DNA from: Martinezella lusitana
GTDB taxonomy: Bacteria; Pseudomonadota; Alphaproteobacteria; Rhizobiales; Rhizobiaceae
Assembly (NCBI RefSeq): GCF_900094565.1
Contig: NZ_FMAF01000001.1
Location: forward strand, 372,001 to 436,000
Reading direction: 5' to 3'
Length of the DNA: 64,000 nucleotides
The notes below the pieces were generated by a model, which saw nothing but the letters and a program-made list of their open reading frames with translations, ran no database searches and was not told the DNA's origin. Shown piece by piece: positions 5,229-36,627 of the stretch (position 1 is the first letter of the stretch; the number at the start of each line of letters is the position of its first letter). The position numbers were made by a program, and so were the translations under genes.

Positions 5229-5377
5229 ATAGATTATCTATATCAGCATCTCGTCATTCTCAATTGCATAAAGCGGTCATAGCCGCGATTATTGCAGCAT
5301 GGAATTGAAAACTGCCGCCGCCCGACTGGCCGATGCCCTCATGGTTGCATCGATGCGGAGATCCAAGGAGGCATGCC

Positions 5378-32434: not shown

Positions 32435-33496
32435 ATGAACATCAAGAGCCTTCTTCTCGGCTCCGCTGCTGCTCTGGCAGTAGTTTCTGGCGCTCAGGCA
32501 GCCGACGCTGTCGTCGCCGCTGAGCCGGAACCGCTCGAATACGTCCGCATCTGCGACGCGTACGGCGCTGGTTATTTCTTCATCCCGGGCACGGAAACCT
32601 GCCTGAAGGTCGGCGGTATGGTTCGTACCGAAGGCAAGTGGTACAACGCTTACAACCCGGCTGACCGTTACGGCACGCTGTGGCACACCCGCGCTCAGCT
32701 GAGCGTCGATACCGCATCGGACACCGAATACGGTCCGCTGAAGACCAACACCGTCTATCGTTTCGACTGGCAGGATGGCGGTTCGACAACCACCAAGCTG
32801 CTGTTCGCCAATATCAGCCTCGGTGGCTTCACCATTGGTAAGGCCGACTCGCAGTACAACTCCTACATCGGTTACGCCGGCAACGTCATCAACGACGACG
32901 TTGTTTATGACGGTCCGTACGAACTGAACCAGTTGACCTACAACTACGACGCAGGCAACGGCTTCACGGCTGTGATCTCGGTCGAAGACAGCAACTCCGG
33001 TTCGGGCGCCAAGGGCGTCAACGGCGAAGACAGCTCCGACCACTACGCTCCCGACGTTGTTGCCGGTGCCGGCTACAAGGTTGGCAACTTTGGCTTCAAG
33101 GTTGTTGGCGGCTACGACTCGATCGTCGAAGAAGGCGCCATCAAGGCCCGCGCCGATGCCGACTTCGGCGTCTTCAAGGCCTTCGTCATGGGCGGCTGGA
33201 ACACCGACGGCGACAAGCTGAACAAGTACGCAAGCTCGAACGGCGCTGGCCCGGCCAAGACCATCGGCTGGGGTGACTGGGCTGTTTGGGGCGGCGTCAC
33301 CGTTCCGATCGACGCCAAGCTGCAGGCCAACGCTCAGGTTGCCTACACCGACTCGAAGATCTTCGCTGCGACCGCCAACCTTCGTTGGAACCCGGTCAAG
33401 AACCTTCTGGTTCAGCCGGAAGTTTCCTACACCAACTGGGACTCCATCAATCAGGACCAGTGGGCTGGCGTTCTGCGCTTCCAGCGTAGCTTCTAA
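32435..33496 (+). CDS. outer membrane porin (RopA-like)
   Basis: A 353-residue outer-membrane porin of the alpha-proteobacterial Porin_2 family. A signal peptide ends near residue 22 (MNIKSLLLGSAAALAVVSGA then QAADA). The mature start is EPLEYVRICDAYGAGYFFIPGT and CLKVGGMVRTEGKW. The protein ends in Phe (WAGVLRFQRSF), the outer-membrane assembly signal. Codon use is strongly biased, as in highly expressed genes. It begins 6 bases after GGAG and is followed by a terminator. Confidence 0.93.
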   Translation: MNIKSLLLGSAAALAVVSGAQAADAVVAAEPEPLEYVRICDAYGAGYFFIPGTETCLKVGGMVRTEGKWYNAYNPADRYGTLWHTRAQLSVDTASDTEYGPLKTNTVYRFDWQDGGSTTTKLLFANISLGGFTIGKADSQYNSYIGYAGNVINDDVVYDGPYELNQLTYNYDAGNGFTAVISVEDSNSGSGAKGVNGEDSSDHYAPDVVAGAGYKVGNFGFKVVGGYDSIVEEGAIKARADADFGVFKAFVMGGWNTDGDKLNKYASSNGAGPAKTIGWGDWAVWGGVTVPIDAKLQANAQVAYTDSKIFAATANLRWNPVKNLLVQPEVSYTNWDSINQDQWAGVLRFQRSF

Positions 33497-33526
33497 GACC
33501 TCGTTTTCGAGATCTGATCTGACTTG

Positions 33527-33601
33527 ACCCCTGATCGGATGGGGACTGGTCCGACTTCCAGCGAAGTCGGGCCGGTCCTTCCGAGGCAGGGGTTAAATTT
33601 T
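33527..33601 (+). terminator. terminator of the porin gene
   Basis: A long stem-loop: inner arms 33543-33558 and 33563-33578 pair over 16 bp with two G-U pairs around a 4-base loop, and outer arms ACCCCTG (33527-33533) and CAGGGGT (33587-33593) extend it. TTAAATTTT follows. Strong intrinsic terminator downstream of a highly expressed gene. Confidence 0.78.
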
Positions 33602-33800
33602 GGGGTCCGTGCCTCTCAAACGAACAACAGCGGCATCCGTAGAGAATTGTAAAATATCCCACCCAGACAGACGATCCGCAAATAGGCGCTGAAGACCGGA
33701 TCTGTCAGTAAGATGGAATGGCGGCGCCGCAGCCAATCTCCTTCATTTTGCCCGCATCAACATCATCGACATCAAGCATTTTTTGTCGTAGAGACAACTC

Positions 33801-33875
33801 ATGTCGATCATCTGCGTATACGCCTCGCGATTTTATTCGTACCGCTGCTTTCAGCGGAGGCGGGCCTGTGCGTAG
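33801..33875 (+). CDS. Phe/Tyr-rich leader peptide of the DAHP synthase gene
   Basis: A 24-residue frame from ATG 33801 to TAG 33873-33875. Residues 7-17 read YASRFYSYRCF: three Tyr and two Phe in eleven residues, the two end products that control this enzyme class. The frame ends before a terminator just upstream of the DAHP synthase. Known leader peptides (trpL, pheL) have the same layout. Upstream GAGAC is a weak ribosome binding site. No protein evidence; recognised by composition and position. Confidence 0.75.
   Translation: MSIICVYASRFYSYRCFQRRRACA
33842..33857 (+). promoter_or_regulatory. pause hairpin (1:2) of the attenuator
   Basis: CCGCTG (33842-33847), loop CTTT, CAGCGG (33852-33857): a perfect 6-bp stem at the end of the Phe/Tyr codon run. 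Its right arm AGCGG can alternatively pair with CCGCT at 33909-33913 in the terminator's left arm, forming an antiterminator when the ribosome stalls. Confidence 0.65.
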
Positions 33876-33906
33876 TTAACACTGACGCGACACCAAAGAC
33901 CCGAAC

Positions 33907-33935
33907 AGCCGCTAGTCTACCTGGCGGCTTTTTTT
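33907..33935 (+). terminator. attenuator terminator before the DAHP synthase gene
   Basis: AGCCGCTAG (33907-33915) pairs with CTGGCGGCT (33921-33929) over 9 bp with one G-U around loop TCTAC, directly followed by seven T (33929-33935). It lies 36 bases before the DAHP synthase start, between it and the leader peptide, so it must be read through for expression. Confidence 0.85.
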
Positions 33936-33970
33936 GTCGCCGCGGTATGATCTTACAAGGAACTGATACC

Positions 33971-35032
33971 GTGCTGAATTCCACTGATGATTTGCGCATT
34001 GTCGAGATCACGGCGCTCACGCCGCCCTCTCGCATCATAGATGAGATCCCCCGCGACGAAGCGGTGACGACAACCGTCACCGAGGCGCGCAACGCTGTCC
34101 ATAACATCCTGCGCGATGAAGACGACCGGCTGATCGTGGTCATTGGCCCCTGCTCCATCCACGATCCGGATGCCGCGCGTGAATATGCGGCATGGCTGAA
34201 GGAACAGCGCGACCGTTTCGTCGACGATCTCGAGATCATCATGCGGGTCTATTTCGAGAAGCCGCGGACCACCGTCGGATGGAAGGGTTTGATCAACGAC
34301 CCGCATCTTGACGGCAGCTATCGCATCGAGGAAGGCCTGCGCATCGCACGCAAGCTTCTGGTCGATGTCAACGAAATCGGTCTGCCGGCCGGTTGCGAAT
34401 ATCTCGATACGATCACGCCGCAATATATCTCCGATCTCGTAAGCTGGGGCGCGATCGGTGCGAGGACGACCGAGAGCCAGGTGCATCGGCAATTGGCGTC
34501 CGGTCTCTCCTGCCCTGTCGGTTTCAAGAACGGGACGAATGGCGATGTGCGGATCGCGCTCGACGCCATCGTAGCGGCTTCGCAGCCGCATCATTTCCCG
34601 GCCGTGACCAAGGAAGGTCTGGCGGCGATCGCCTCAACACGCGGCAACGAGGATTGCCACCTCATCCTGCGCGGCGGCAAAGAGCCGAATTACGATGCGA
34701 CCAACGTGCAGGCCGTATCGGAACTGGCATTGAAAGCCGGGCTCGAGCCGCGGATCATCATCGATGCCAGCCATGCCAACAGCAGCAAGAACCCGGAAAA
34801 CCAGCCGGTGGTGGTCAGCGCCGTGGCGGAGCAGATATCGGCCGGCGACCGGCGCATCAAGGGCATGATGATGGAGAGTAACCTCATCGCCGGCCGCCAG
34901 GATCTCGTTCCCGGCAAGCCGCTGGTCTATGGCCAGAGCATCACCGACGGCTGCATTGACTGGCAGACCTCCATCCGCACATTGGAGGATCTGGCGCAAG
35001 CCGCGCAGGCAAGGCGGCGGCTTGCGCGATAA
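33971..35032 (+). CDS. aroG: class I 3-deoxy-7-phosphoheptulonate (DAHP) synthase
   Basis: First enzyme of the shikimate pathway, condensing phosphoenolpyruvate and erythrose 4-phosphate. The 353-residue protein is of the E. coli AroF/AroG/AroH class (DDLRIVEI at its N-terminus, VVIGPCSIHDPDAAREYA, EKPRTTVGWKGLINDPHLDG, GARTTESQ, LRGGKEPNY and ASHANSSKNPENQ with metal ligands). Rhizobia more usually carry class II enzymes. GTG 33971 was chosen because AAGGAA precedes it by 9 bases and it gives the AroG-like N-terminus; ATG 33947 lies next to the terminator with no binding site. Regulated by the leader attenuator. Confidence 0.93.
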   Translation: MLNSTDDLRIVEITALTPPSRIIDEIPRDEAVTTTVTEARNAVHNILRDEDDRLIVVIGPCSIHDPDAAREYAAWLKEQRDRFVDDLEIIMRVYFEKPRTTVGWKGLINDPHLDGSYRIEEGLRIARKLLVDVNEIGLPAGCEYLDTITPQYISDLVSWGAIGARTTESQVHRQLASGLSCPVGFKNGTNGDVRIALDAIVAASQPHHFPAVTKEGLAAIASTRGNEDCHLILRGGKEPNYDATNVQAVSELALKAGLEPRIIIDASHANSSKNPENQPVVVSAVAEQISAGDRRIKGMMMESNLIAGRQDLVPGKPLVYGQSITDGCIDWQTSIRTLEDLAQAAQARRRLAR

Positions 35033-35062: not shown

Positions 35063-35506
35063 TTAAGCGCGTCGATAGTGCGCGAGGCTGAGATAATGCT
35101 TCCGAGGCCCGCGCACGTGCCACATCTCGGCCCAGGCGTCCGGCCCTCGAAAGAAAAAACGGCCCCGGTAAAGATCGGGGCCGCAATGATGAACGACATG
35201 CTGTGACGCGCCGTCACCGATACGGATGAATTCGGCAAGATCGGGAAAGCGGACGACGAGATCTTCAACCGCATCGTCAAGCCGATACGCGCGGCTGCTT
35301 CTGAGCGTCGCGTGATCGCTGTGCGTGTCGCCATGTTCTTCGAACTGGACAGGCGTCACAAAAGCCTGCCCTTCGAATGTCACCAGCGAATGATTGAGGC
35401 GGTCGATGATCCGGCGCCTCACATCCCATGTGCCGAGATAGGGTTTCAGCCGTCCGCTTGAGCTGTTCCCCGCGTCAGGACGCCGCGCGCTGCGCTGCGT
35501 CGGCAT
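35063..35506 (-). CDS. DUF6314 family protein
   Basis: A 147-residue protein with [14 protein letters not shown], the sequence by which the DUF6314 family is recognised, and [53 protein letters not shown] toward its end (conserved aromatic and His residues of this family, a lipocalin-like pattern). Function unknown. It starts 32 bases inside the 3' end of msrA, so it is translated from the same message. The exact start is not certain. Confidence 0.72.
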
Positions 35507-36002
35507 GCCGGACCGGAAGCTTCCAGCCAGGCCTGACGAAGTGGCAGGTATAGCCGTTCGGATAGCGCTCCAGATAATCCTGGTGTTCCGGTTCCGCTTC
35601 CCAGAAGTCGCTGACCGGCGCTACCTCGGTGACGACTTTGCCCGGCCACAGGCCGGAGGCGTCGACATCGGCGATCGTGTCCAGAGCGACCCGCTTCTGC
35701 TCCTCGCTCGTGTAAAAGATCGCCGAGCGGTAGCTCATGCCGACATCATTGCCCTGGCGATTACGGGTGCTCGGATCGTGGATCTGGAAGAAGAATTCCA
35801 GAAGGTCACGGTAGCTGATCTTCTGCGGATCGAAAACGATCTCGATCGCTTCGGCATGCGAACCATGGTTGCGATAGGTGGCATTGCGGACATCGCCGCC
35901 GCTGTAGCCAACGCGCGTCGAGATGACGCCGTTGTAACGACGGATGAGATCCTGCATGCCCCAGAAACAACCGCCGGCGAGAACTGCACGCTCCGTAGTC
36001 AT
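35475..36002 (-). CDS. msrA: peptide methionine-S-sulfoxide reductase MsrA
   Basis: Repairs the S-epimer of methionine sulfoxide in proteins using thioredoxin. In 175 residues it has the catalytic [13 protein letters not shown] (Cys12), [28 protein letters not shown] and [22 protein letters not shown]-type core; [21 protein letters not shown] follows. It overlaps msrB by 4 bases (ATGA), so the two subfamilies are translationally coupled, and it is followed by the DUF6314 gene. Confidence 0.95.
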
Positions 36003-36448
36003 CTTACATCCTCCACTTGATCGATATAGGCACCATACCCCTCGGCTTCCATGCGGTCACGCGGCACGAAGCGGAGGGAGGCGGAATTGATGCAATAGCG
36101 CAGGCCGCCACGGTCCTGCGGTCCGTCCGGGAAAACATGGCCCAGGTGGCTGTCGCCATGCGCCGAGCGCACTTCGGTGCGCACCATGCCATGCGAGATA
36201 TCGGTCAGCTCGCTGACATTGGCTGGTTCGATCGGCTTGGTGAAGCTCGGCCAGCCGCAACCCGAATCGAATTTGTCGGAAGAGGCAAACAGCGGCTCCC
36301 CCGATACGATGTCGACATAGATGCCCGACTGCTTGTTGTAGAGAAGTTCGCCCGTACCGGGGCGCTCCGTGCCGCTTTGCTGCGTCACGCGATATTGCTC
36401 AGGGGTAAGCTTGGCTATCGATTCTGCTGTCTTGCTATAATTGCCCAT
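35999..36448 (-). CDS. msrB: peptide methionine-R-sulfoxide reductase MsrB
   Basis: Repairs the R-epimer of protein methionine sulfoxide. The 149-residue protein has the [12 protein letters not shown] motif near residue 62 (recycling Cys), [16 protein letters not shown] and the catalytic [13 protein letters not shown] near residue 119. The two CxxC pairs that bind structural zinc in many MsrB are not present, so this is the zinc-free form. ATG 36446-36448 follows AAGGAGAACAAC. First of a 4-base overlap with msrA. Confidence 0.94.
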
Positions 36449-36627
36449 GTTGTTCTCCTTGCCCTTGGCACGCATTTCAAACTTGACCGGGACCAGCGAA
36501 AGGAAGCGGGTTGGCGAATATCAAGCTCGATCAGCGTTATGGGAGTGGTTGCGAGGCGAGATATAGGTATCGCCGGTCCAATTTGCCATATCGATCACGA
36601 GCGCGTGACACTCCACGGTGTCGGCGC

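Follow-up and report, generated by a model that had tools for sequence, protein, structure and literature searches.

A probable aromatic amino acid attenuator ahead of a class I DAHP synthase gene in Martinezella lusitana and related proteobacteria

Introduction

In a 64,000-nucleotide stretch of DNA from Martinezella lusitana (contig NZ_FMAF01000001.1, positions 372,001 to 436,000, hereafter the window), a gene encoding a DAHP synthase is preceded by a short open reading frame rich in aromatic codons and by a hairpin ending in a run of T. This raises the question of whether the gene is controlled by a leader on which ribosomes stall, and how far such a leader extends among related bacteria. 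A previous reading made from the letters alone (the sequence-only reading) had proposed a complete Phe/Tyr attenuator at this place. Its parts were read again, compared with those of relatives and weighed against other explanations.

The gene and its surroundings

The gene (33971..35032, plus strand, GTG start) encodes a class I DAHP synthase of the AroFGH type. The enzyme, of 353 amino acids, belongs to TIGR00034 (506.4 bits for a curated cut-off of 173.2) and scores 294.8 bits with PF00793. Among the matches listed, the nearest named DAHP synthase is that of Rhizobium miluonense (92%). The same genome also encodes a type II DAHP synthase, whose upstream stretch, read by eye, revealed no comparable leader, and holds a second PF00793 match elsewhere. 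Two overlapping ORFs of the minus strand (35475-36002 and 35999-36475), which we take to resemble the methionine sulfoxide reductases MsrA and MsrB, face the DAHP synthase gene.

Parts of the element in the window

The leader ORF (MSIICVYASRFYSYRCFQRRRACA) runs on the plus strand over 24 codons, from the ATG at 33801 to the TAG stop at 33873-33875, and direct reading finds Tyr7, Phe11, Tyr12, Tyr14 and Phe17 at the bases where they had been reported. According to the codon tables, the control codons are Phe11 (TTT), Tyr12 (TAT), Ser13 (TCG) and Tyr14 (TAC), at 33831..33842. They lead into a pause hairpin (33842..33857), located to the base by the sequence-only reading and made of arm 1 (CCGCTG, 33842-33847), a CTTT loop and arm 2 (CAGCGG, 33852-33857). 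Between the leader and the gene lies an intrinsic terminator of 9 bp (33907..33935), whose arms AGCCGCTAG (33907-33915) and CTGGCGGCT (33921-33929) enclose the loop TCTAC (33916-33920). The seven T that had been described after it are indeed present (33929-33935), the first of them being inside the stem. The ribosome binding site AAGGA (33957-33961) and the GTG at 33971 follow as had been announced, the latter about 35-36 nt past the end of the T run.

The antiterminator had been described as the pairing of AGCGG (33853-33857) with CCGCT (33909-33913). The coordinates are correct but the description is incomplete: a second helix joins CGGG (33861-33864) to CCCG (33900-33903), giving a 5' side at 33853..33864 and a 3' side at 33900..33913, and the 5 bp alone are not beyond chance in the window. 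CCGCT (33909-33913) is common to the 3' side of the antiterminator and to the terminator.

The verdict from the window alone is mixed, while it becomes clear once relatives are included. The 171-nt stretch folds better than its shuffles (z -3.47; 1 of 200 shuffles as good), and a scan of the whole window for leaders rich in aromatic codons with a terminator behind them, on both strands in overlapping 360-base tiles, matched only the site at 33801. The number of terminator-like sites in 33480-34100 (one, vs 0.5 +/- 0.8) is not above that of shuffles, and the window's own pairing of arms 2 and 3 is not better than that of arm-2 shuffles (z -0.2; 79/200 as good).

A further hairpin (CGCGGTAT...ATACCGTG, 33941..33973, plus strand) has AAGGA in the loop, and the GTG start is part of the stem. 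The genus retains this hairpin, with a few broken or wobble pairs and no clear compensatory change in an alignment of 38 distinct sequences; it was not seen in the other lineages folded. It is possibly a second control, acting on translation.

Conservation of the leader frame and of the control codons

Codons were counted in 47 distinct elements of the genus, picked without any peptide filter. The sequence-only reading had staked itself beforehand on the leader frame being conserved in relatives, and all 47 elements keep an ATG ORF of 24 codons that ends 15-45 nt before the terminator. It had also predicted that aromatic codons would be kept while other positions drift, and this is what the counts give: Phe at position 11 and Tyr at position 12 are found in 47/47 leaders, and position 14 is Tyr in 45 and Phe in the other two. 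Position 13 is more variable (Ser in 34, Trp in 11, Tyr in two). By contrast, Tyr7 (37/47) and Phe17 (5/47) do not hold as conserved control codons, Tyr7 being in addition too far upstream to act. It should be emphasized that codons 10-12 are invariably CGA TTT TAT in the 47 leaders, and conservation at this place is therefore partly one of nucleotides.

The proposed Phe/Tyr specificity fits this genome but is too narrow for the family. Among 85 leaders, Phe occurs in 85, Tyr in 84 and Trp in 43, with all three in 42. Because of these mixed leaders and of the Trp at position 13 in 11 of the 47 genus leaders, the family would be better called an aromatic attenuator. The Phe codons of leaders are mostly TTT (175 TTT, 61 TTC), those of the enzyme genes mostly TTC (64 TTT, 426 TTC); part of this leader preference may come from shared ancestry.

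Conservation of the structure and alternative pairing

In 46 elements, 93.7% of the cells of the terminator are paired (0/500 shuffles), slid versions reaching at most 56.4%. Its covariation score is also above that of shuffles (0.137 vs 0.099; 0/500), while its further pair types are not (174/500). Within the genus, the terminator loop (33916-33920 in the window; TCTAC, CTAC or CAAC) hardly varies, although the spacer before the loop drifts.

For the antiterminator, 81.4% of cells are paired (0/500 shuffles; slid versions at most 54.2%), with 95.2% for the first helix and 64.1% for the second one (CGGG:CCCG). The cells changed on both sides number 32 vs 13.6 in shuffles (0/500). Two other measures are not above shuffles, namely the pairs with a change on both sides (five; 248/500 as high) and the further pair types (12; 356/500 as high), and these two failing measures, of five, are the ones least swayed by relatedness. 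Among the 46 elements, 33 have G-C at pair 72:140 and 11 have A-U; this switch splits one group from the rest and may represent one event. The energy of the antiterminator duplex gives a z below -1.645 in 35/74 elements and not in the other 39, with a mean of -1.8. The comparative alignment advocated by the sequence-only reading thus came out in favour of the codons and of the paired structure, but some covariation measures did not exceed shuffles. For alternative pairing, the support comes from the family; the window taken by itself gives none.

Spacing of the codons and of arm 2

Arm 2 could be located in 83 elements and not in two further ones. In 72 of the 83, the distance from the final aromatic codon of the run to arm 2 is 11, 13 or 14 nt; three of the exceptions are leaders with Phe17. 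The footprint of a ribosome extends about 15 nt from its P site. On this basis, a ribosome waiting at codon 14 would cover the RNA as far as about 33852, so that arm 1 is masked and arm 2, from 33853, is just left free. A ribosome at Tyr7 would leave the pause hairpin free, and one at Phe17 would cover arm 2.

Arm 2 lies in phase 1 of the codons in 34 of 35 leaders of the genus type, but 45 of the 48 others have it in phase 2. The peptides past the aromatic run differ (QRRR vs PLAEE) and the RNA is unchanged. The arm has therefore been kept across a change of frame, as RNA and not as peptide.

Predicted promoter and leaderless start

A predicted -35 box (TCGACA, 33766..33771) and a predicted -10 box (TAGAGA, 33789..33794), separated by a 17-nt spacer, precede the leader on the plus strand. 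They were not picked up by a fixed consensus promoter scan of the window. In 33 distinct loci of the genus, the 45 nt upstream of the leader ATG have some of their most conserved positions at -35 to -30. With +1 taken as seven bases after the -10 box, the transcript would start on the A of the leader AUG (about 33801). The best -10 box starts 11-14 nt before the leader ATG in 29/33 genus loci and 32/48 others (61/81 together), vs 11.8% of base-shuffled copies of the 48 non-genus loci. The Massilia-type loci (L048, L073 and L075) have their best boxes further upstream. A Shine-Dalgarno-like tetramer precedes the leader in only 4/33 genus loci and 10/49 others. Since the conserved boxes put +1 on the A of the AUG, the leader mRNA is probably leaderless.

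Link to the gene within the genus

A covariance model (R1), built from 46 of 74 elements and with the terminator as its sole structure, was used to search 148 genomes of the genus. Every genome gives some match at E 0.01, but strong full-length matches number 115 (78.6-118.3 bits); the others listed score at most 37 bits and most of them are limited to the terminator end of the model. The DAHP synthase gene was found in 119 of these genomes. All 115 strong matches are upstream of it, on the same contig and strand and 27-38 nt before the protein match, and none was found without the gene in the 148 genomes. The gene lacks the element in four of the 119 genomes (G030, G109, G110 and G169). In the same way, leader and terminator are both present in 29 of 30 related loci, the exception (L026) having neither. 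In this genus, the element is strictly tied to this DAHP synthase gene.

Distribution beyond the genus

A strict scan (at least four Phe, Tyr or Trp in eight codons, an ORF of 10-45 codons and a terminator within 90 nt) was applied to the best 80 of a longer list of matches to named DAHP synthases. At least 58 of these 80 loci are positive, whereas the 639 other ORFs of 250 aa or more in the same loci give a single match. The figure of 58 is a floor, because three loci (L044, L070 and L110) fail the scan although the parts are visible by eye, and another one (L084) has only 157 nt upstream. Positive loci include members of Devosia, Caulobacter, Alcaligenaceae, Oxalobacteraceae and Pseudoxanthomonas.

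The sole match of the control, near 5346 of the Mesosutterella multiformis locus (L081), is an aromatic leader with a terminator (MNYRARFYFTFNFFPCPAERVVSCA), which sits after the DAHP synthase gene and before a further long ORF.

In a sample of the phylum (80 upstream regions from 61 genera, the best match per genus plus extra copies), the element is found in 8/61 genera, vs 1/80 regions for a wrong-strand control. Its presence follows enzyme identity, with 11/11 positive at 63% or more, 3/41 at 55-62% and 0/28 below. Four regions missed by the scan (L182, L212, L218 and L220) carry strong aromatic leaders but lack a terminator acceptable to it.

A quick tree of 82 enzymes, from which L058, L069 and L084 were left out and in which L044, L070 and L110 were scored positive by eye, requires 7 changes of the trait vs 16.4 in shuffles (0/500 as low). 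Of the 54 rows gathered on one branch (SH-aLRT 95), 52 have the element. Together, scan and tree indicate that the element characterizes one large group of these DAHP synthases rather than rhizobia.

Two loci of this tree deserve mention. The enzyme from Acidisphaera sp. S103 (L037; 74% identical) lies beside the rhizobial ones, and neither leader nor terminator was found in the 330 nt before its gene. The other locus (L045) comes from a record titled Mycobacterium sp. KBS0706. Because its gene and element fall among alphaproteobacterial ones, the record may be misnamed or the contig may be foreign.

Proposed mechanism and alternative explanations

The sequences themselves show the parts, how these are conserved, how strictly they are linked to the gene, and the alternative pairing. 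The element is very probably a ribosome-mediated transcription attenuator like those of trp and pheA. For the start site, the translation of the leader, the stalling and the direction of the response, we infer the following course. Transcription would begin at the leader AUG or right beside it, and the leader would be entered by a ribosome trailing the RNA polymerase. When Phe- or Tyr-tRNA runs low, this ribosome would stall at codons 11-14 and mask arm 1; arm 2 (AGCGG...CGGG) could then pair with arm 3 (CCCG...CCGCT), which would block the terminator and let the gene be transcribed. If charging is good, the ribosome would reach the stop codon and cover arm 2, the 9-bp terminator would form and transcription would end near 33935.

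Among the other explanations, the one that survives best is that the leader RNA and its peptide act mainly in trans, as a small leaderless mRNA or sRNA, attenuation being secondary. The predicted start of the transcript at the AUG recalls the trans-acting rnTrpL of S. meliloti, as PMC10117765 and PMC7298713 present it, and the terminator loop is almost invariant in the genus alignment. However, a free sRNA needs no link to a gene, whereas all strong copies precede the DAHP synthase gene, and the aromatic codons are spaced to arm 2. A mainly trans-acting leader is thus improbable. There is a somewhat better, though still small, chance that the terminated leaderless RNA (about 135 nt) or the 24-residue peptide acts in trans in addition to attenuation, like rnTrpL/peTrpL in S. 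meliloti. If so, rhizobia would have a second dual-function RNA, one passed on together with the DAHP synthase across proteobacteria.

It is very unlikely that the terminator merely ends upstream transcription, the aromatic ORF being a chance frame and the promoter of the gene lying after the terminator. Such a promoter may exist, although only 35 nt lie between the T run and the GTG, the terminator count in the window does not exceed shuffles, and another ATG frame also crosses the region in 20/47 genus elements. Against this stand the conserved boxes that precede the leader ATG, the fixed 24-codon frame of all genus elements and the single match of the scan control. As for a metabolite riboswitch or a T-box instead of ribosome stalling, which a long conserved leader ahead of a biosynthetic gene could evoke, it is extremely unlikely, as Rfam at gathering score reports only tRNAs (two in the window, one in 15 related loci) and as conservation sits at the codons and arms while the region before the codons drifts.

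Comparison with known attenuators

Like the pheA and trp attenuators of enterics, the putative attenuator described here combines regulatory codons, a pause hairpin, an antiterminator and a terminator before the gene. Unlike them, it precedes the gene of the first shared step (DAHP synthase), has mixed Phe/Tyr codons, with a Trp codon too in many relatives, and is predicted to be leaderless. The closest rhizobial counterpart is trpL/rnTrpL of S. meliloti: PMC10117765 describes a leaderless sORF and an attenuator whose mRNA starts at the leader AUG, as predicted here, and, together with PMC7298713, an action of rnTrpL in trans. It carries Trp codons and precedes trpE, whereas the leader of the window carries Phe/Tyr codons and precedes a DAHP synthase gene.

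An attenuator of a DAHP synthase gene is not new as an idea, since such attenuators have been proposed in print for Corynebacterium and Acholeplasma. A passage of PMC4046766 gives a predicted attenuator for aroF of Corynebacterium glutamicum, with a leader peptide containing Phe-Tyr-Phe; it is also placed before a DAHP synthase gene but is actinobacterial. The uORFC-13-1 motif of Acholeplasma, as outlined in a passage of PMC8632094, consists of an upstream ORF, which contains one or more Phe codons, and of a terminator, both ahead of aroF; it belongs to another phylum and was not reported by the Rfam scans. The same paper notes an earlier hypothesis of attenuation for E. coli aroF. In an excerpt of a Shewanella screen, aroF appears as 'Attenuator sensing tyr-tRNA', on the basis of older E. 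coli work (PMC2659441). Likewise, an excerpt of PMC1173090 places Vibrio aroA-I-alpha-Y > tyrA among putative attenuators taken from a website.

Concerning catalogued RNAs, Phe_leader (RF01859) gave no match in the window, either at gathering score or at E up to 10; its best score, in a relative of the same order (L150), is 24.7 for a cut-off of 55 bits. The Bradyrhizobium sRNA BjrC1505 was rejected as an identity for the leader (13.1 bits for a gathering score of 50; absent from the matches of related loci). No description of the proteobacterial leader family was found in the literature searched; Vitreschak 2004, the C. glutamicum attenuator paper or Lopatovskaya 2010 may contain this or a similar prediction. 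This version of the leader, recurring across many proteobacteria, thus appears to be so far undescribed.

Implications

The family adds a leader that is absent from the Rfam copy used. It also offers a large set of predicted leaderless leader ORFs in which attenuation could be studied without a Shine-Dalgarno site, and natural variants of the aromatic run (RFYSYR, RFYWYR, FWYFSY and FFYFYAF) that could reveal the relative weight of Phe, Tyr and Trp in a mixed leader. In genomes that also carry a type II enzyme, it points to a likely control on the second DAHP synthase. If the proposed mechanism is true, entry into the shikimate pathway would respond to the charging of tRNAs with more than one of the aromatic amino acids.
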